Shown here: positions 10,613 to 59,181 of the stretch, in pieces
Layout of the letters: every line of letters begins with the position of its first letter
How positions within the stretch are numbered: the stretch's first letter is position 1
NCBI GenBank assembly: GCA_014380365.1
Contig: JACMJZ010000025.1
Coordinates: 310,001 to 374,000, forward strand
Origin: Pyrinomonadaceae bacterium
GTDB taxonomy: Bacteria > Acidobacteriota > Blastocatellia > Pyrinomonadales > Pyrinomonadaceae
DNA length: 64,000 nt
Direction: 5' to 3'
Notes under the pieces: generated by a model
Told to the model about the DNA's origin: nothing
Databases searched by the model: none
Seen by the model: the letters and a program-made list of their open reading frames with translations, nothing else
Program-made: the position numbers and the translations under genes

Positions 10613-11389
10613 ATGAAAGGCGAACAACCTCAGTTACAAAAACGCCCTGAGCGAATTGATAAGTTGCTGGTTCAGCTTGGGCTGGCCGACTCTCGGACGA
10701 AAGCGCAAGCCATGGTAATGGCCGGCGTCGTACTCGTTAACGAACAACGCATCAACAAACCTTCAGACCTGGTTGCTGCCGGCGCAGAAATCCGAATCAA
10801 AGGCGGCGACGATCCCGCGTCACGATACGTTGGGCGGGGCGGACTAAAACTTGAATCAGCGCTACGTGAGTTTCAAATCAGAGTAGCGGAGTTGACCTGC
10901 CTCGATGTCGGCGCCTCAACCGGCGGATTCACCGATTGCCTGTTACAACACGGAGCCCGCAAGGTCATCGCGATCGATGTCGGTCACAACCAGATTGACT
11001 GGCGCCTCAGAACCGACCCTCGCGTCGAAGTTAGAGAAGGGGTCAATGCCCGTTACCTCAAACAAGATGACTTCGAAACCAGATTCGACGTCGTCGTCAT
11101 GGATGTCTCTTTTATCTCAGCAACCAAAATAATGCCCGCGCTCGTACCATTGCTCACCGACGCGGGCCGTTTAATCACACTCATCAAGCCTCAGTTTGAA
11201 GTGGGGCGGGGGGAAGTAGGCAAGGGCGGCATCGTTCGCGATCTGCAACAGCGCGCGCGCGTCGTTGGTGAAGTAAACAGTGCCGCCCAGGAGCTTGGAC
11301 TTGATGTCAAAGGCGTCATCGAATCTCCAATTCACGGTGCAGACGGCAACGTAGAGTTTCTCGCGCTTTATGAAAAGACGGGGCAGTAG
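10613..11389 (+). CDS. tlyA: TlyA-family rRNA 2'-O-methyltransferase
   Basis: 258 residues. An S4 RNA-binding domain (RIDKLLVQLGLADSRTKAQAM, about residues 13-75) precedes an FtsJ-type methyltransferase domain: the SAM loop CLDVGASTGGFTDCLL, IDVGHNQIDWRLR, VVMDVSFIS and TLIKPQFEVGRGEVGKGGIV. TlyA methylates cytidine 2'-OH groups of 16S and 23S rRNA in mycobacteria; other homologues may act only on one subunit. It is followed by nadK in the same direction. The stop codon TAG (11387-11389) lies inside the left arm of a long palindromic repeat. Confidence 0.93.
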   Translation: MKGEQPQLQKRPERIDKLLVQLGLADSRTKAQAMVMAGVVLVNEQRINKPSDLVAAGAEIRIKGGDDPASRYVGRGGLKLESALREFQIRVAELTCLDVGASTGGFTDCLLQHGARKVIAIDVGHNQIDWRLRTDPRVEVREGVNARYLKQDDFETRFDVVVMDVSFISATKIMPALVPLLTDAGRLITLIKPQFEVGRGEVGKGGIVRDLQQRARVVGEVNSAAQELGLDVKGVIESPIHGADGNVEFLALYEKTGQ

Positions 11390-11454
11390 CCCGACCGTTA
11401 GGAAGGGCGCCCGGTCGCATTGAACGCCCTCCCTAACCGTCGGGCTACTGCCCC
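11380..11454. repeat. Palindromic repeat of the GCCCGACCGT/GGGAGGGC type, copy 1
   Basis: 29-bp arms at 11380-11408 and 11426-11454 match at 27 positions and have a 17-bp loop. The outer tips are GGGGCAGTAGCCCGAC. The left arm supplies the last codon and stop of tlyA. Related copies occur at 15354-15440 and, as one arm, at 18012-18032. A transcript would fold into a very stable hairpin between tlyA and nadK. Confidence 0.8.
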
Positions 11455-11553
11455 ACATGCCGAAGGCCGTTGCTCCTCAGTCAATGTTGCAGTTAACATG
11501 CGACGGTCTTTTCATCCATCCCCCAGTAAGTCGATTCAAATTATTGCTCCAAG

Positions 11554-12438
11554 ATGACGAGCTCCTCAATTAAGCGTATTGGCATTGTGCTGAAGCCGAG
11601 TCAGCCGGACGCGCTAAACACCATGTGCGAGCTTGCGGCCTGGCTTACCGAGCGGGACATCGCCCTCCTGGGCGGCCCGGAAATCGAGCGCGAGCGAATT
11701 GAACAGAAAACCGGATGTGCGGTTGAGCAAGTCAAACCGGAAGAGTTGGCCGCCAGCGTTGACTTAGTACTCGTGTTGGGCGGGGACGGCACAATGATCG
11801 CCGCCGCCCGGATGATGGGCGAGACGGAAGTGCCGGTGCTCGGCGTTAACTACGGGGGCCTCGGTTACCTGGCGGAGTTTCGCATAGAGGAACTGTACAC
11901 AGCGCTGGAATCGATTCTGGCCGGCAATTATCGTTTGGACCGGCGCGTGATGCTGGACGTCGAACTCCAGCGTGGCGAGGAGCAGGTAACGCGCAATCGC
12001 GTGCTCAACGACATCGTCATCAATAAGTCGGCCCTCGCACGCATCATCGAAATCGAAGCTTATCTCAACCGGCAGTTTGTTAACTCATTCCGCGCTGACG
12101 GACTTATCGTCTCCACGCCGACGGGTTCGACTGCCTACAATCTCTCGGCTGGCGGTCCGGTGATCTTTCCGTCGATGAACGCTGTCGTGATCACCCCGAT
12201 CTGCCCGTTCACCCTTTCGAACCGGCCAATAGTTGTGCCTGACGATGCTGTTATCGAACTCTGTTTGAAAACTGAGCGGGAGGATGTGGCGTTAACTCTC
12301 GATGGTCAGGTTGGGTTTCCGTTGGAGGTGGAGGACCGTGTACTAATTCGCAAGAGCCAGACGACCTTCAACATTGTGCAGCCTACTAACAGAAACTATT
12401 TCGAAGTGTTGCGAGACAAACTGCGCTGGGGAAGATAG
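11554..12438 (+). CDS. nadK: NAD kinase
   Basis: A 294-residue ATP-NAD kinase that phosphorylates NAD to NADP. Visible: VLVLGGDGTMIAAARM (GGDGT motif), LGVNYGGLGYLAEF, the NE/D substrate motif LNDIVINK, FRADGLIVSTPTGSTAYNLSAGG, and CPFTLSNRPIVVP. The length is normal for the bacterial family. It follows tlyA, an arrangement shared with many bacteria where tlyA and nadK are close neighbours. Downstream lie heptamer and 21-bp tandem repeats. Confidence 0.96.
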   Translation: MTSSSIKRIGIVLKPSQPDALNTMCELAAWLTERDIALLGGPEIERERIEQKTGCAVEQVKPEELAASVDLVLVLGGDGTMIAAARMMGETEVPVLGVNYGGLGYLAEFRIEELYTALESILAGNYRLDRRVMLDVELQRGEEQVTRNRVLNDIVINKSALARIIEIEAYLNRQFVNSFRADGLIVSTPTGSTAYNLSAGGPVIFPSMNAVVITPICPFTLSNRPIVVPDDAVIELCLKTEREDVALTLDGQVGFPLEVEDRVLIRKSQTTFNIVQPTNRNYFEVLRDKLRWGR

Positions 12439-12452
12439 CCGGAGAAAGTGAT

Positions 12453-12529
12453 GAGTACTGAGTGCTGAGTACTGGGTCCGGAGTTCGGAGTTCGGAGTTC
12501 GGAGTTCGGAGTTCGGAGTTCGGAGTTCC
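12453..12529. repeat. Heptameric tandem repeat
   Basis: Eleven 7-bp units in perfect register: GAGTACT, GAGTGCT, GAGTACT, GGGTCCG, then six GAGTTCG and a final GAGTTCC. It begins 14 bp after the nadK stop. Similar 7-bp repeats with other sequences occur near 28631, 57458, 59111 and 61967. Confidence 0.85.
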
Positions 12530-12562
12530 CAAGACTTGATGCGGAGTGCTCAACGGTCGTTA

Positions 12563-13024
12563 GGGGGAACCCGCAGGTCGATTCAGGGAACCCAAAGGTT
12601 AGCTGGGAGTACCCGTAGGTCGATTAGGGGAACCCAAAGGTTAGTTGGGAGTACCCGTAGGTCGATTAGGGGAACCCAAAGATTGATTAGGAGTACCCAA
12701 AGATTGATTGGGAGTACCCAAAGATTGATTAGGGGAACCCAAAGATTGATTGGGAGTACCCAAAGATTGATTGGGAGTACCCAAAGATTGATTGGGAGCA
12801 CCCAAAGATTGATTGGGGGAACCCAAAGATTGATTGGGGGAACCCAAAGATTGATTGGGAGTACCCAAAGATTGATTGGGGGAACCCAAACTTTGATTGG
12901 GGGAACCCGAAAGTCGATTCAGGGAGCCCAGGAATTGATTAGTAGTACGCAAAAGTTAATTAGGGGAACCCAAGAATAGTCTTTGGGTACCCAAAACTTG
13001 AGACTCAGAACCCTAGACCTTAAA
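12563..13024. repeat. 21-bp tandem repeat array, 22 units
   Basis: Twenty-two consecutive units of exactly 21 bp, the first at 12563 and the last at 13004, with no insertion or deletion. The consensus is GGGAGTACCC or GGGGGAACCC followed by AAAGATTGATT. Each unit is a short imperfect palindrome (TTGGGnnnnCCCAA). The middle units (6-16) are nearly identical and the outer ones diverge, as expected for an array kept uniform by unequal exchange. It ends about 5 bp before the ATG of the symporter gene. A 21-bp period equals two turns of B-DNA. Confidence 0.95.
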
Positions 13025-13028
13025 AAAT

Positions 13029-14498
13029 ATGGCCAATAATCGAAAAGACGAAGGTAAACGGACGATTAGCGCGGATGCGTTTGAGCGGGAGGTTACCACC
13101 GATCTCGACGATGAGACTCCAGATAAGCCGAAGGGCATTGCGCTGCACACGCGCATTCTGATCGGTCTGGCAGTGGGAGTGATTGCCGGTGTTTCGGTCA
13201 ACCTAACATTTGGCGGCGACCATCCGCGCGTGGTTTGGTTTGTCGATCACTTCACGCAGCCTGTCGGCCAGCTGTTTCTGCGTTTGCTGCTGATGATTGT
13301 GGTGCCGCTCGTGTTCTCGTCCCTCGTGGTCGGAGTTGCCGGGATTGGCGATATTCGCAAACTTGGACGCGTGGGCTTGAAGTCGTTTGGGTATTGCCTG
13401 GTGGTTTCAGCCATATCCGTGATCATCGGGTTGACGCTGGCGAACACGATCAGGCCGGGTGAGCGCATTGACCCGGCGACTAAGGCTGCGCTCGAACAGC
13501 GTTACGCTACGGATGCGACGAAGCAGGTGGAGGCGGCGAAAAAGGCGGGCGCTGTTTCAACACCGCTGATGCAAGTGGTGGAAACGCTCGTGCCTTCCAA
13601 CCCGTTCGCAGCGATGTCCGGAGTGCCTTCAAATCCCAGCACTGCTACGTCAGCTGGGACGCCGAACATGCTCCACCTGATGTTCTTCGCTCTGATAATC
13701 GGCATTGCCATTACCCTGATTCCAGTGACTGTCACTGCGCCTTTCCTCCGCGGACTCCAGGCCCTCTACGAAATCACCGCGAAGATCATCGAGATCATCA
13801 TGAAGTTTGCGCCTTACGCAGTGGCCTGTTTGCTCTTTAACAATACCGCCCGATTTGGAATCAACCTGCTGCAGGCGTTGGCGTGGTTCGTCGTCACCGT
13901 GCTGGTGGGGCTGTCGTTGCACATGTTTGGTGTTTATTCGCTTTCCATCTATTTCCTTTCGCGGATGTCGCCGATTGAATTCTTCCGGCGCATCAAGACC
14001 GTGATTCTGACTGCCTTCTCGACCTCGTCTTCAAACGCCACGCTGCCCACCGCGTTGCGGGTTTCCGAAGAGAACCTCGGTGTCCCCCAGGAGATTAATA
14101 GTTTTGTCCTGACCGTGGGAGCAACTGCGAATCAAAACGGCACCGCACTGTATGAAGGAGTGACCGTGCTGTTTCTGGCCCAGCTGGCCGGGGTCGATTT
14201 GTCGCTTGGGCAGCAATTGATGGTTGTTTACCTGGCGATACTCGGCGGCATCGGCACAGCCGGCGTTCCTTCAGGTTCTATTCCTTTCATCATCGGCGTG
14301 CTGGTTACCATTGGAGTTAATCCGGCGTTGATTGCGATTATTCTGGGAGTGGATCGAATCCTCGATATGTGTCGCACAACGCTCAACGTCGTGGGCGATA
14401 TCACGGCTGCGACTTTCGTGGCGCGCTCAGAAGGTTATGAGTTATTGAAGCCGCATGAACCGGCGATTGTGCGGGCCGGCGTTGGCGCGGGGAAGTAG
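13029..14498 (+). CDS. Dicarboxylate/amino acid:cation symporter (SDF family)
   Basis: 489 residues, a GltP/DctA-type inner-membrane symporter with about eight spans and two re-entrant hairpins. Signature segments: SSSNATLPTALRV (HP1), GATANQNGTALYEGV (TM7, equivalent to the NMDGT motif), GGIGTAGVPSGSI (HP2) and DRILDMCRTTLNVVGD (TM8, the Asp and Arg that contact the substrate carboxyl and amino groups). It takes up C4-dicarboxylates, glutamate or aspartate with protons or Na+. The N-terminal 35 residues are hydrophilic. An unusual insertion of about 60 residues (roughly 155-215) between early spans is rich in Ala, Pro and Ser. The 21-bp repeat array occupies its upstream region. Confidence 0.92.
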   Translation: MANNRKDEGKRTISADAFEREVTTDLDDETPDKPKGIALHTRILIGLAVGVIAGVSVNLTFGGDHPRVVWFVDHFTQPVGQLFLRLLLMIVVPLVFSSLVVGVAGIGDIRKLGRVGLKSFGYCLVVSAISVIIGLTLANTIRPGERIDPATKAALEQRYATDATKQVEAAKKAGAVSTPLMQVVETLVPSNPFAAMSGVPSNPSTATSAGTPNMLHLMFFALIIGIAITLIPVTVTAPFLRGLQALYEITAKIIEIIMKFAPYAVACLLFNNTARFGINLLQALAWFVVTVLVGLSLHMFGVYSLSIYFLSRMSPIEFFRRIKTVILTAFSTSSSNATLPTALRVSEENLGVPQEINSFVLTVGATANQNGTALYEGVTVLFLAQLAGVDLSLGQQLMVVYLAILGGIGTAGVPSGSIPFIIGVLVTIGVNPALIAIILGVDRILDMCRTTLNVVGDITAATFVARSEGYELLKPHEPAIVRAGVGAGK

Positions 14499-14557: not shown

Positions 14558-15316
14558 ATGGTTTTTCCACTTTATGACGACAACAGCGACCGCACGACGA
14601 CGCCGTTTGTTAACTACATTCTGATTGTCATCAACATCCTGGTCTTCGTCTTCCTGCAACAGGTTGGCACAAACGACAAGTTTACCTACGCGTTTTCGAC
14701 CGTGCCGCAGGAGATTGTTACGGGACGTGACCTCACCACACCTGATCGAGTCGTGGAGCATCCAGTCTCGGGCCAGGAACTCTTGATTCCCGGTCTCCAG
14801 CCAACGCCATTTTCCGTCTACATGACTCTGATTTTTTCGATGTTCATGCACGGGGGCATCGCACACATCGCAGGCAACATGCTCTTCCTTTGGATCTTTG
14901 GTGACAACCTCGAACACACGATGGGTCATGTGAGATATGTGATCTTCTATCTCGTCTGTGGCGTCATCGCGTCGCTCGCTCACGTGTTTACCACCGTGGC
15001 CTTTGCCACTGAACAAGGGAGTTTACTAATTCCAAGTCTGGGAGCTTCGGGCGCGATTTCCGGGGTGATGGGCGGTTATCTACTGCTACATCCCAAGCGG
15101 CGCGTGACCGTTATCCTGTTTCGTTTTCTCACTGACGTTCCCGCGTATGTGGCGATCGGGATCTGGTTCGCGTTTCAATTGATCAGCGGGCTGGGAATAT
15201 TGGGTGTCGGATCGCAGCAGGGTGGTGTGGCTTATGCAGCGCACATTGGCGGCTTCATCGCAGGCTTAGTGCTCGTCAAGTTTTTTACGATTGGGCGCGC
15301 GTCTTCCTACGGCTAA
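14558..15316 (+). CDS. Rhomboid-family intramembrane serine protease
   Basis: 252 residues with six or so membrane spans. Catalytic features: the N-terminal loop HIAGNMLFLWIFGDNLE (GN motif with Asn), the nucleophile Ser in LGASGAISGVMG (GASG) and the general base His in AAHIGGFIAGL. It cleaves membrane-spanning substrates within the bilayer; the substrate is unknown. The start follows GGAG (about 12 bases). The loop between spans 1 and 2 is about 65 residues, longer than in GlpG. Nothing nearby points to a specific target. Confidence 0.9.
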   Translation: MVFPLYDDNSDRTTTPFVNYILIVINILVFVFLQQVGTNDKFTYAFSTVPQEIVTGRDLTTPDRVVEHPVSGQELLIPGLQPTPFSVYMTLIFSMFMHGGIAHIAGNMLFLWIFGDNLEHTMGHVRYVIFYLVCGVIASLAHVFTTVAFATEQGSLLIPSLGASGAISGVMGGYLLLHPKRRVTVILFRFLTDVPAYVAIGIWFAFQLISGLGILGVGSQQGGVAYAAHIGGFIAGLVLVKFFTIGRASSYG

Positions 15317-15353
15317 GCCCCGGTTGTCACTCTTAGTGAAACCTTGTTGCTGA

Positions 15354-15440
15354 GGCGGGGCACTAGCCCGACCGTCAGGGAGGGCTCACATCGATGGCAA
15401 AGGAATGGCGAGCCCTCCCTTACAGTCGGGCTAATGCCCC
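15354..15440. repeat. Palindromic repeat of the GCCCGACCGT/GGGAGGGC type, copy 2
   Basis: Arms at about 15354-15386 and 15411-15440, inverted copies with a few mismatches and a 24-bp loop. The core AGCCCGACCGTCAGGGAGGG matches the copies after tlyA and at the end of the MFS gene. It lies between the rhomboid gene and queF. Confidence 0.8.
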
Positions 15441-15496
15441 GATCGTCACTTTTCTGGTTGTTGCTGCGACTGTCACTCTCAAGTAAGCTCGTGAAG

Positions 15497-15919
15497 ATGA
15501 TTAATCGAGAAATAGAACTCGCGCCCGTCAATCAGCAGGGTCTGGACATTCGCGAGACCGCGCGTGAGGAGATGGATCTATATCCGCTGGACACTTTCCC
15601 GTATGAATTTCCCGGCCGCGAAATCAAGATCGATTTTGAAATCACTGAGTTCACGGCCATCTGCCCATTTTCCGATTTTCCTGACTTCGCTACCATTCGT
15701 CTCGAGTATGTTCCCAACGAACGATGTATCGAACTAAAGAGTCTGAAGCTTTATATCAACTCATTTAGAAACGTGAAGATATTTCACGAGCACGTTATCA
15801 ATGTGATCCTGGACGACTTTGTGCGCGCCTGCGATCCACTGAGCGTCGAGATTGAGGGCGACTTCCACGTTCGGGGAAACATCAAGACCGTCGTACGGGC
15901 AAGCTATCAGAAAGAATAG
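15497..15919 (+). CDS. queF: QueF, NADPH-dependent preQ0 reductase
   Basis: 140 residues, the short (type I) QueF. It reduces the nitrile of 7-cyano-7-deazaguanine to preQ1 with NADPH in queuosine synthesis. The catalytic Cys sits in [15 protein letters not shown]. The QueF signature is [17 protein letters not shown], and [12 protein letters not shown] follows. The start is ATG 15497; GTG 15491 is also in frame. The frame stays open further upstream through the palindromic repeat, but those codons read repeat sequence and are not part of the enzyme. The toxin-antitoxin pair follows after 8 bp, although no functional link is implied. Confidence 0.92.
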
Positions 15920-16709: not shown

Positions 16710-18044
16710 ATGGGTGAAACCGATACCGACGCCGCCGACCAATTCGATGCGCGCATAAGTCCCGAGAAACTTGATGAAGGATCTCCCGGACTCTGGCGCC
16801 GGTATCGCCGGCTGCCGCGCAACGTCTTCGCCATCAGCCTCGTTAGTCTTCTAAACGACGTCTCGAGCGAAATCATCTACCCGCTGCTGCCGGTTTTTCT
16901 CAGCATAACTCTGGGTGTTTCCCCAAGAATTCTCGGAACGATCGAAGGCGCGGCTGAATCGGCCTCCAGCTTCCTCAAACTGTTTGCCGGACACTTCAGC
17001 GATCGCGCCGGCAAACGGAAGGGACTGGTTGTTTTTGGTTACGCGCTTTCCAGTGTGATACGGCCGTTGTTGGCGCTGGCGTCGACCTGGTATCAGGTGC
17101 TGGGCATTCGTCTGACTGACCGCGTGGGTAAGGGCATCCGTAGCGCGCCGCGGGACGCAATGATTGCTGATGCAGTAAGAATCGAAGAGCGCGGGTTGGC
17201 CTTTGGGTTTCACCGGGCGATGGATCATAGCGGCGCAGTAATCGGCCCTTTGATTGGCTATGTTTTGTTACTGCTGTTCGCAGCGGACCGCAACGCGCCC
17301 ACTGCCGGCGACTTCCAGAGTATTTTTCTGCTGGCTTCAATACCAGCACTCGCGGCTGTGCTGGTAGTTGTGTTCTTCGTCCGCGAATCAAAAAAACCAA
17401 CGATCCAGACCCCTGCGCCTGACACGACCGTTGCCCCGCCGCTGCGACTCTCTCTCCGGGGCTTTGACAGTAACTTCAAACGCTTCCTGCCAATCGTTGC
17501 CTTATTTACTCTTTCGAATTCCTCCGATTTTTTCCTAATACTGCGGGCGAGTGATGCTGGAGTATCCATTGCCAGCATTCCGTTGCTTTGGGCCGGACTC
17601 CATGTAACTAAGGTCTTGAGTTCAATCTTTGGTGGCGACCTGTCGGACCGGCTTGGCCGCAGACGGCTAATTGTTTCGGGTTGGATCCTTTACGCCGCTG
17701 TCTACGCCGGCTTCGCTTTTGTTTCGAATCAAGTTTCCGTCTGGATACTCTTCCTGATCTATGGAATCTATTTTGGTCTCGCGGAAGGCGCGGAGAAGGC
17801 ATTGGTTGCCGACCTGGTGCGGCCGGAACAACGAGGCACCGCCTACGGACTGTATAATCTCGCTTTTGGGATCACTGTGTTCCCAGCGTCACTGCTCATG
17901 GGTGCGGTGTGGGAATGGCGCGGCCCGCAGACGGCGTTTCTACTTAGCGCGGCGCTCGGCGCAACCGCTGCTTTGCTGCTAATGCTCGTAGTGAAACCGA
18001 GTCCAAGCAGAAGCCCGACCGTGAGGGAGGGCCCGGCTTCGTGA
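16710..18044 (+). CDS. MFS transporter
   Basis: A 444-residue, 12-span major facilitator. The loop 2-3 motif is GHFSDRAGKRKGLVVFGYAL, repeated in the second half as GDLSDRLGRRRLIVSGWIL. DRVGKGIRSAPRDAMIAD is typical of a subgroup found widely in bacteria with unknown substrate. The start at ATG 16710 (MGETDTDAAD) is the most sensible, as upstream in-frame codons are not membrane-protein-like. The last residues (SPSRSPTVREGPAS) are encoded by one arm of the dispersed GCCCGACCGT repeat, so the original stop was probably replaced by repeat sequence. Confidence 0.85.
   Translation: MGETDTDAADQFDARISPEKLDEGSPGLWRRYRRLPRNVFAISLVSLLNDVSSEIIYPLLPVFLSITLGVSPRILGTIEGAAESASSFLKLFAGHFSDRAGKRKGLVVFGYALSSVIRPLLALASTWYQVLGIRLTDRVGKGIRSAPRDAMIADAVRIEERGLAFGFHRAMDHSGAVIGPLIGYVLLLLFAADRNAPTAGDFQSIFLLASIPALAAVLVVVFFVRESKKPTIQTPAPDTTVAPPLRLSLRGFDSNFKRFLPIVALFTLSNSSDFFLILRASDAGVSIASIPLLWAGLHVTKVLSSIFGGDLSDRLGRRRLIVSGWILYAAVYAGFAFVSNQVSVWILFLIYGIYFGLAEGAEKALVADLVRPEQRGTAYGLYNLAFGITVFPASLLMGAVWEWRGPQTAFLLSAALGATAALLLMLVVKPSPSRSPTVREGPAS
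18012..18032. repeat. GCCCGACCGT/GGGAGGGC repeat, single arm inside a gene end
   Basis: One arm of the repeat family seen at 11380 and 15354 lies inside the last codons of the MFS gene. A short GGGC/GCCC hairpin follows up to the stop. It shows that this repeat can alter C-termini. Confidence 0.7.
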
Positions 18045-26401: not shown

Positions 26402-28669
26402 ATGATGGGTGAACCGACCAAACCAGAAGACGGTTACCTTGATGGCAAAGCTGAGTCTAAGTCGATAGCTGGCGCCCCAACCCCCGGCTCCACCCAGCCA
26501 TCCTATGCGTCCCGGCTTTCATTTCTCGCTTCCGGAATTCGCAGCGTGTTTCGCGGAGAGATCAGCGCCAGTGCCGCCGCGCGCGAACTTATCCGCCGCG
26601 GGCGAGTTATCGTCACCCGGCGGAGCGAGCGCCGAATGCTCAATGAGCTTGACTCGCAAGCTGTAGAATTGCTGCCTCAGTTTCAAACGCTTTCCGCCGC
26701 GGAACTGCTAAGTCATTTTCGTGAACGAAGCGCTCCTGCGTTTTTGCCTGGAGTCGAACTCGACTCGACGGCCAGGCTTCAACAACAACTCTTTCCAGAC
26801 GAAACCCGGTCCTTGTTTGACACCGCTCGGTTGATTGCGCGCGGACATCGCTGGCCGCTGCTCGGTTTCGGTGAGCAGGACTTTGGTCAGGCAATAAACT
26901 GGAATCGCGATCCGCTTTCAGGAAGGCTCTGGCCGCTCGATTATCATGCCACCATTTCCCTCTGGCATGGCGATGGTTCCGATATCCGGGTGTTGTGGGA
27001 ACTCAATCGCCTGGGCCACTTGATAACCCTTGGCCGCGCCTATGCGCTCACCAAAGACGAAAAGTTTGCCGAAGAGTTTTTTAGTCAAGTCGAAAGCTGG
27101 CGGGAAGAGAATCCCGTCGGCCGCGGGGCGAATTGGGCGTGCGCAATGGAAGTTGCGTTGCGGGCCATGAACTTGTTGGCAGCATACTCGCTCTTCCGCA
27201 AGTCTCCAGGTCTTTCCGTAGCACGACTGTTCAGCTTGCTCACGATGTTTGACCAGCATGGCCGCCACATTCAACGTAATCTTGAGTTTTCAAACATCTC
27301 AACCAGCAATCACTATCTATCAGACGTCGTGGGGTTGTTATGGCTCGGGATCATGCTGCCCGAGTTGAGTGCGGCCGAGGAATGGCGGCGCTGGGCCATC
27401 GCGGAAATGCTGCGCGAGATGGACAAACAAATCCTGCCGGATGGTGCCGACTACGAGGCGTCCACCGGCTACCACCGTTTCGTGCTCGAGTTGTTTCTCT
27501 ATTCGTTCATTCTTTGTGACGCCAACGATATTGCGATCGAGGAGAAGTACTGGCAGAAGCTGCGCGCGATGTTTGTCTATGTCCGGGGAACGCTGCGGCC
27601 GGACGGTCGCGCGCCTTTGATTGGTGACACCGATGGCGGACAAGTTTTGCCGATTGTGAGTCGCACCGCGGACGATCATGCGTACCTGCTGGCTTTTGGC
27701 GCGGTGATCTTTGAGGACGCCAGTTTCAAACTTCCGGGCTTGCAGGCGACTGAAGAAATATTGTGGGCGCTCGGTGAGGATGGAGTGCGTAACTACGAAA
27801 GCCTATCCGTTTCCAATGAGCCAGTCCGGTCACAGGCTTTTCCTGACGCCGGAACCTACCTGCTCCGCGATGATGACAAGTATCTGTTGTTCAATCTGAG
27901 CGGCGCGGGCGGAAAGCGCCGAGGTTCTCACGGCCACAATGACGCTCTAAGCATAGAAGTCTCGGCCGGCGGCCGAGCGTTCATCGTCGATCCGGGCAGC
28001 TACGTTTACACCGCAGACCTACACCAGCGGCATCTTTTTCGTTCAACCGCCCACCATTCCACAATTCAGATCGACGCCGTCGACCAGAACACAACGAATG
28101 AACTGGCTCCGTTTGTAATCGGCGATGAGGCCCACCCGCGTTTGCTCGACTGGCAAACTACGCCGGAGCGCGATTATGTGCGAGCCGAGCATGCGGGCTA
28201 CGCGCGCCTCGGCCAATCGGTAACACACCGGCGGAGCGTCACGTTCGACAAAGCCGCCGGTTGGTGGCTCGTTGAAGACAAGATTCTTGGGACGGGTGAA
28301 CACACGATCGCGGTGCGGTTTCACTTCGACGCCGGACTCGATGTCGAAGCGCGCCATGAAAAGAGTGCAGATGGCAGCGGTCAGAGTATGGTGGTGGCGT
28401 GCGATAAGATGGCGGATGAAATGAGCGAGAATGCGGCGAGGCTTTTCGTCTGCGCGCTCGACTCGCAACAGCAGCCGCAATTGGAGCAACAGTTTACTTC
28501 GAAGCATTATGGCTCGAAGTTGCCATCAGTTTCCGCGTGCTGGTCAGTCACGGCGAGCCTGCCTTGCAAGTTCCGGTGGGCGATTGTGGCGGTGGGCGTG
28601 GGCGAAAGCGTAGAGGAGCGATTAAAGGTTGTCCAAAGTCCAAAGTCTACCTGTCCGCTAACAGGTTAG
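26402..28669 (+). CDS. Heparinase II/III-family protein
   Basis: 755 residues. An N-terminal alpha-toroid region (about residues 100-420; NWNRDPLSGRLWPLDYH, ISTSNHYLSDVVGLLWLG, GADYEASTGYHRFVLE) is followed by the heparinase II/III C-terminal sheet (GSHGHNDALSIEV, FIVDPGSYVYTAD, FRSTAHHSTIQID). Secreted homologues are polysaccharide lyases that cut uronic-acid glycosides. No clear signal peptide is seen here, so a role in polymer maturation or turnover within the locus is inferred. Such proteins recur next to asparagine-synthase-type genes in exopolysaccharide loci, as here. Likely translated together with wecB. Start at 26402 or 26405. Confidence 0.85.
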   Translation: MMGEPTKPEDGYLDGKAESKSIAGAPTPGSTQPSYASRLSFLASGIRSVFRGEISASAAARELIRRGRVIVTRRSERRMLNELDSQAVELLPQFQTLSAAELLSHFRERSAPAFLPGVELDSTARLQQQLFPDETRSLFDTARLIARGHRWPLLGFGEQDFGQAINWNRDPLSGRLWPLDYHATISLWHGDGSDIRVLWELNRLGHLITLGRAYALTKDEKFAEEFFSQVESWREENPVGRGANWACAMEVALRAMNLLAAYSLFRKSPGLSVARLFSLLTMFDQHGRHIQRNLEFSNISTSNHYLSDVVGLLWLGIMLPELSAAEEWRRWAIAEMLREMDKQILPDGADYEASTGYHRFVLELFLYSFILCDANDIAIEEKYWQKLRAMFVYVRGTLRPDGRAPLIGDTDGGQVLPIVSRTADDHAYLLAFGAVIFEDASFKLPGLQATEEILWALGEDGVRNYESLSVSNEPVRSQAFPDAGTYLLRDDDKYLLFNLSGAGGKRRGSHGHNDALSIEVSAGGRAFIVDPGSYVYTADLHQRHLFRSTAHHSTIQIDAVDQNTTNELAPFVIGDEAHPRLLDWQTTPERDYVRAEHAGYARLGQSVTHRRSVTFDKAAGWWLVEDKILGTGEHTIAVRFHFDAGLDVEARHEKSADGSGQSMVVACDKMADEMSENAARLFVCALDSQQQPQLEQQFTSKHYGSKLPSVSACWSVTASLPCKFRWAIVAVGVGESVEERLKVVQSPKSTCPLTG

Positions 28670-28722
28670 ACTTGGACTTTAGACGGAAGACTTTGGACTT
28701 TGGACCTTGGACTTTGGACTAA
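28631..28722. repeat. Heptamer and inverted repeat, GTCCAAA/TTTGGAC
   Basis: Tandem GTCCAAA units at 28631-28647 are mirrored by TTTGGAC units at 28689-28720. The gap between the heparinase and asnB genes can therefore fold into a hairpin. The 17-bp arms pair perfectly. Confidence 0.8.
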
Positions 28723-59110: not shown

Positions 59111-59175
59111 AGTTTCGAGTTTCGAGTTTCGAGTTTCGAGTTTTCAACTTGAAACCCGGAACTCGAAACCCGAAA
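59111..59175. repeat. AGTTTCG heptamer array and inverse
   Basis: Four perfect AGTTTCG units (59111-59138) are followed by inverse pieces (CGAAACCCGAAACT near 59165). It lies between the ALDH start and the protease stop, both on the minus strand, so it forms part of the ALDH promoter region. Confidence 0.8.
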
Positions 59176-59181
59176 CTGATT

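Follow-up and report, generated by a model that had tools for sequence, protein, structure and literature searches.

Between the genes for an NAD kinase (nadK) and a sodium:dicarboxylate symporter (SDF), both on the plus strand, the genome of a Pyrinomonadaceae bacterium carries a spacer with tandem units of 21 bp. This locus raises the question of what holds the unit length at 21 bp while the sequence of the units changes. It was studied within a window of 64,000 nucleotides, the whole stretch of DNA analysed here (C34:310001-374000; the genome comprises 4.98 Mb in 34 contigs), and its features are collected in Table 1.

Table 1. Features of the nadK-symporter region, in window coordinates
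Feature	Position	Strand	Remarks
nadK, NAD kinase	11554..12438	+	PF01513/PF20143
7-bp repeats: GAGTACT-type, then CGGAGTT x7 (12479-12528)	12453..12528	.	judged a separate class
two degenerate 21-bp units, same register	12521..12562	.	identical to majority unit at 13/21 (unit at 12521) and 11/21 (unit at 12542) positions
QRLIGST frame	12536..12979	+	147 aa, TTG start; judged spurious
21-bp tandem array, 22 units	12563..13024	.	register unbroken
sodium:dicarboxylate symporter (SDF)	13029..14498	+	PF00375; start agrees with orthologues

Register and reading frames of the window array

At lags 21, 42 and 63, self-match of the array amounted to 0.74, 0.80 and 0.77, respectively, while every other lag among 5-69 gave at most 0.45. 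Because the best 462-bp stretch elsewhere in the window reached 0.36 at lag 21, the array was not attributed to chance. A register test of 24 units (12521-13024) yielded zero shifts. The exact register over 462 bp described in an initial annotation of this DNA was thereby confirmed, and it even extends through the two worn units upstream, of which the unit at 12521 overlaps the CGGAGTT array. The same annotation had spoken of 22 perfect units. This holds for their spacing, which is exact, and not for their sequence, as agreement with the majority unit, GGGGGAACCCAAAGATTGATT, ranges from 9 to 21 of the 21 positions in units 1-22. The array was also correctly placed next to a transporter start codon, since 4 bp separate its end from the symporter ATG.

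A frame encoding 7-residue repeats of the QRLIGST type is open over 147 aa, and the opposite strand of the array holds two more open ORFs (72 and 103 aa). Translation of such a repeat protein would account for the register, as a unit length divisible by three protects a frame, and the synonymous share of substitutions in the QRLIGST frame was indeed 0.41, against 0.24 expected. However, a similar excess (0.36 against 0.23) was found in the +1 frame, even though that frame has stops in 15 of 20 units. The QRLIGST frame itself closes inside unit 20, as had been noted, while the register runs on beyond it. Because all six frames are stopped in 12 of 21 arrays of the class described below, the window array among them, the register of the class is not coding, in agreement with the view initially taken of this array. 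Across units and arrays, no frame was conserved in the manner of a coding-repeat protein, and we give a protein of QRLIGST-type repeats almost no weight.

Judged by its symporter, the genome has its nearest named relatives in Pyrinomonadaceae and other Acidobacteria MAGs, and the symporter or a distant homologue was present in 16/16 genus genomes, source genome included. Inspection by eye of the readable gaps after nadK in the genus genomes revealed no 21-bp array. Among 80 named loci, 26 have nadK with its full C-terminus upstream, and none of these 26 has a 21-bp array in the gap, the length of which varied between 9 and 653 bp. Where the relatives' gaps gave lag-21 values of 0.40-0.48, lag-7 values were always higher, and these gaps contain heptamer hairpins as well as, in two cases (L079 and L096), an S23 gene. 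GTTTCAA arms enclose the S23 gene in the gap of L079, and its ~93% identical sisters L078 and L137 have GTGACAA hairpins instead. Such differing heptamer elements among close sisters speak for rapid turnover of the nadK-symporter gap.

Elsewhere in the window, the peptide SPTVREG was observed in small ORFs or ORF ends at 11171-11458, at 15313-15919 and at the end of an ORF at 18044, and was followed by LTVGL at two of these three places.

The 21-bp arrays and the sp and sp2 genes

A search of the source genome for the unit, as proposed in the initial annotation, returned a single other place (C1:34146-34237, 72% identity over 92 bp). This match falls within a 21-bp array of 10.6 copies, which lies ahead of a gene of a protein family here named sp. 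In addition, CCCGAAAGTCGATT of the window array reappears in an array of another genus (G134:C99). A loose pattern search for GNNNACCC, required three times at 21-bp steps in 60 family genomes, was positive in 9/60 genomes; the reversed control gave 4 hits in 3 genomes. Among the loci fetched from this search, clear 21-bp arrays were found at G134:C2, G104:C18 and G116:C127, and 3-4 copies at G090:C1, G046:C23 and in G128; three further fetched loci (L310, L311 and L312) showed no array by TRF. More 21-bp arrays are present in G134 and G104.

The array on C1 and those at G104:C124 and G134:C33 are each located near an sp gene. A search with the protein was positive in 10/41 family genomes and gave five matches in the source genome. 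For each testable gene, the 700 bp upstream were scored for a 21-bp array, defined by lag 21 being the best of lags 12-35 and reaching at least 0.5. All 17 testable sp genes, one of them cyanobacterial, passed, compared with 2/272 mechanical ORFs of at least 150 aa from a genome sample. Fourteen of the 17 came from the protein search without reference to arrays (Fisher p 6e-22), the other three (L328, L332 and L320) having been met through their arrays. From the search set of 20 sp loci, 15 were tested; L331 was excluded for having only 123 bp upstream. Four partial or broken sp matches (L336, L341, L342 and L343), left out of the 17, had no array, and no locus was available for another four matches. 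In the source genome, the tested copies L328, L338, L344 and L347 all have arrays, while the fifth copy is without a locus. Unit sequences differ from one sp copy to the next, and the best-repeated stretch stops 25-448 bp ahead of the sp protein match. The cyanobacterial sp gene, one of the 14 that came from the protein search, belongs to a Kovacikia minuta plasmid; its array, ~150 bp upstream, comprises 11.7 units whose sequence is again different.

The sp proteins have a length of ~120-150 aa, with one long helix and a basic tail. An AlphaFold model (pLDDT 79, pTM 0.47) placed helices at residues 9-24 and 36-89, followed by a low-confidence basic tail. No known DNA-binding fold was found in this model, which, as a prediction, would be compatible with DNA binding as well as with its absence. 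Comparison of the sp profile with solved chains returned mostly coiled-coil stretches (best E 0.00016), which were taken as unspecific. No sp family was found in Pfam (E up to 0.01) or NCBIfam (E up to 1), and the best PHROGs match was no better than E 0.016.

In random samples, period 21 accounted for 2/20 rows (period 10-60, spanning at least 100 bp) and is hence not dominant. One 21-bp array from these samples (L205) precedes an unrelated gene, named sp2, that has no match in Pfam (E up to 0.1). The array test used for sp was passed by 9/14 testable sp2 loci, a 15th locus having no upstream sequence. Lag 21 was the best in 11/14 loci found by protein, with best lags of 17, 12 and 33 in the remaining three (L362, L357 and L358, respectively).

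No sp or sp2 gene was found in the window, where the best hit had an E value of 0.055 at 33.4 kb, and the window array does not lie within 700 bp upstream of such a gene. The array was therefore called an orphan, and it was assigned provisionally to the class, from geometry and unit likeness only. Its initial interpretation as a promoter tuner for the symporter was not supported, since the gap is free of arrays in the relatives read and the regular downstream genes are sp and sp2.

Spacing and sequence were compared over 19 arrays with 238 units, in which at least 522 distinct substitutions and 1189 mismatches were accompanied by 0 register shifts; the limits of these arrays came from TRF at period 21, a procedure that favours indel-free spans, and L338 and L340, with a best period of 42 bp, were left out. 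In simulations, a single indel of 1-3 nt was detected in 161-171/200 cases (80-86% power), with false shifts in 0/600. At one indel per 50 substitutions, ~8 would have been detected, and the probability of finding none is 0.0002. A lenient TRF setting inserted gaps freely and was unusable as an indel test. These results support that, in the class, spacing is constrained and sequence is not.

A 21-bp unit in this spacer could also have arisen and been homogenised through slippage or unequal exchange, leaving an unbound array with decaying edges. The homogeneous core and worn edges of the window array, the array-free gap in the relatives read and the occurrence of some 21-bp arrays beside ordinary genes are consistent with such a neutral minisatellite. 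Yet the zero register shifts across 19 arrays, the single period common to arrays of unrelated sequence and the arrays at all 17 testable sp genes argue against this explanation, which we regard as unlikely.

A role at the RNA level was considered quite improbable. Within a nadK-symporter transcript, the array would form serial hairpins that pause, process or stabilise the mRNA. This would be in line with the folding energy of the window array (z -5.57 against 100 shuffles, a value overstated because shuffling destroys the repeat) and with the significant dyads in 8/26 array consensi, one of which has 10/10 pairs. The other 18 arrays, however, have no significant dyad. They include the window array (6/10 pairs, p 0.217), in which GGGnnnnCCC, the palindrome pointed out initially, occurs in 12/22 units. 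With significant dyads in 8/26 arrays, the palindrome was dropped as a general rule of the arrays. RNA folding, moreover, does not need exactly 21 bp. A search of the whole window against Rfam at gathering scores gave zero matches.

Heptamer repeats and S23 genes

In 453,606 bases of the source genome, 58/122 TRF rows have a period that is a multiple of 7, and 21 is the third multiple in this repeat census. The unit might therefore be three heptamers, forming part of an S23/IVS-like element in the gap. The CGGAGTT array adjacent to the 21-bp units shares their mod-7 register, for which a heptad origin was favoured early, and the relatives' gaps contain the heptamer hairpins and S23 genes mentioned above. 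Over 21 arrays, the mean match was nevertheless 0.263 at lag 7, compared with 0.264 at lag 6 and 0.248 at lag 8, and in the window array the lag-7 match was 0.20. Lags 7 and 14 were at background on average, with a single-array peak of 0.38 (L322; 0.36 at lag 7), and 21 is therefore not three heptads. Pairing of the gap ends scored 19, within the range of 300 shuffles (mean 13, maximum 22). The heptad origin was dropped after the lag test and is now considered highly improbable; given the background-level match at lag 7 within the 21-bp array, the 7-bp neighbour was judged to be a separate repeat class.

Away from rRNA annotation, S23 genes (PF05635) had inverted, mostly heptameric arms at 66/83 loci (sets L144-L181, L262-L291 and L292-L307, plus contigs of the source genome). 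In the source genome, all nine S23 matches, located on C1, C7, C8, C12, C15, C20 and C23, have inverted arms, mostly 7-bp repeats and each with its own heptamer. Their arm scores were 36-49, against a maximum of 29 among 150 random flank pairs. With 29 further loci of the class included, arms at score 30 were found in 35/38 loci; at the same score, controls gave 9/200 for mispaired arms (one as high as 158) and 2/38 for direct comparison. S23 loci from other genomes had arms at score 30 in 20/29 testable cases (loci were available for 30/38 matches, one being dropped for a short flank), and 11/16 plasmid loci had arms (16 of 27 hits tested, mostly cyanobacterial). The 83 loci tested come from Acidobacteriota, Verrucomicrobia MAGs, Cyanobacteriota, Gemmatimonadota and an Azospirillum plasmid. 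The heptamer sequence changes from one S23 locus to another, and the best lag was 7 or 14 in 54/66 positive loci and 8, 9, 13 or 15 in the others.

Heptamer density was high in nine S23-rich genomes and low in eight S23-free genomes (Mann-Whitney p 0.006), the exceptions being S23-rich G063, with none in 46 kb, and S23-free G049, with 6.2 per 100 kb. Reverse transcriptase was rejected as a partner of the S23 elements, as RVT_1 is absent from S23-rich G051 and G063 and occurs four times in S23-free G047 and six times in S23-free G049. A search by eye for element ends or target duplications gave no clear result.

Among the plasmid loci with arms are S23 genes lying between cas6 and cas4 and others lying between nrdB and nrdA. 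Within CRISPR-cas runs of cyanobacterial plasmids (L292, L296 and L303), the order cas6/S23/cas4 was observed twice and cas10/S23/cmr3 once; S23 genes inside cas runs may be mistaken for CRISPR accessory genes. Heptamer hairpins occur in the window also without an S23 gene (GTCCAAA/TTTGGAC and AGTTTCG/CGAAACT, at 28631-28720 and 59111-59177). Among paired arms with periods of 7, 8, 14 or 21 in samples of 17 genomes, the 5' arm had more G than C in 29/40 cases, fewer in 7 and equal numbers in 4.

The intervening sequence (IVS) of Coxiella 23S rRNA is described, in a passage of PMC4990558, as carrying heptameric repeats ahead of S23p and a terminal stem of 28 bp. For Xanthomonas campestris, part of PMC4692102 reports 186 repeat patterns and 70 cases of two convergent GGGAATC sites close together. 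By analogy with these parts and this arrangement, the S23 loci with arms look like IVS-type elements outside rRNA genes. In titles and abstract openings of open-licence PMC articles, no link between heptamers and S23 outside rRNA genes was found. For 7-bp repeats, polymerase slippage and possible translational regulation are named in passages of PMC4692102 and PMC4679880. The heptamer-S23/IVS link provides a testable explanation for the abundance of 7-bp repeats in certain bacterial genomes.

A putative phased scaffold and its comparison with known systems

Conserved spacing, drifting letters and a small-protein gene downstream would be expected of a phased scaffold to which protein binds cooperatively. 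B-DNA has ~10.5 bp per turn, and 21 bp thus correspond to two turns. The reading that we favour, with about even confidence, is that the window array belongs, as an orphan, to a class of 21-bp register arrays serving as phased protein-binding scaffolds. A phased protein-binding array had been proposed at the outset; the locked spacing and free sequence that it predicts were found at the level of the class, and binding itself, helical phasing as the reason for 21 bp and any function at this site are what we infer.

In the proposed mechanism, unit sequence would drift freely while repeat length is held at 21 bp, in arrays usually placed upstream of a gene for a small protein, sp or sp2. The product of the gene next to the array, as the simplest candidate, would attach to a single side of the helix, with a protomer or a dimer on each unit. 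The loaded protein may then build a cooperative filament or wrapped complex, which would control its own promoter or organise DNA, as ParR does on parC. The orphan array in the window would either be bound in trans, there being five sp matches in the genome, or be a displaced relic, and any effect on the symporter would be incidental.

Somewhat more tentatively, we propose a device present in at least two phyla, in which a small, helical, basic-tailed protein is paired with its own upstream array of 6-18 units. With 21-bp spacing fixed and unit sequence set per copy, such pairs would be insulated from one another and would recognise DNA through its phase no less than through its letters; orphan arrays would be trans sites or relics. 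Titles and abstract openings of open-licence PMC articles yielded no 21-bp arrays before genes like sp or sp2. If correct, the proposal would provide a natural case of conserved spacing without conserved sequence, in which the selection of DNA by a protein through helical phase could be studied directly, and two unannotated protein families would gain a genomic signature.

Three known systems were compared with the window array. Heptameric simple sequence repeats (SSRs), including the cyanobacterial STRR, are likewise intergenic tandem repeats of a preferred unit length, and they are abundant in the source genome, also directly beside the array. The array differs from them in its 21-bp unit without an internal 7-bp period, whereas its neighbour at 12479-12528 does have that period. 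Examples of intergenic heptameric SSRs are GGGAATC in Xanthomonas and TAACTGA in Beggiatoaceae, as given in passages of PMC4692102 and PMC4679880. The S23p/IVS elements resemble the locus in that the nadK-symporter gap of two relatives carries S23 genes between heptamer arms; the window array, by contrast, has no S23 gene and no clearly paired arms, and none of the nine S23 matches of the source genome is on its contig.

The third system is parC of type II plasmid partition, in which, according to part of PMC5016525, tandem repeats lie upstream of the operon and one ParR dimer binds per iteron. In the predicted, mostly helical sp model, no ribbon-helix-helix was recognised. Unlike in parC, unit sequence varies between sp copies and several arrays occur per genome, also on chromosomal contigs and in some cases as orphans. 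Beside the window array, the neighbours are nadK and the SDF symporter, and a motor or Rep gene is absent. What the sp arrays share with ParR-parC and iteron arrays is their layout, direct tandem repeats upstream of a small-protein gene.
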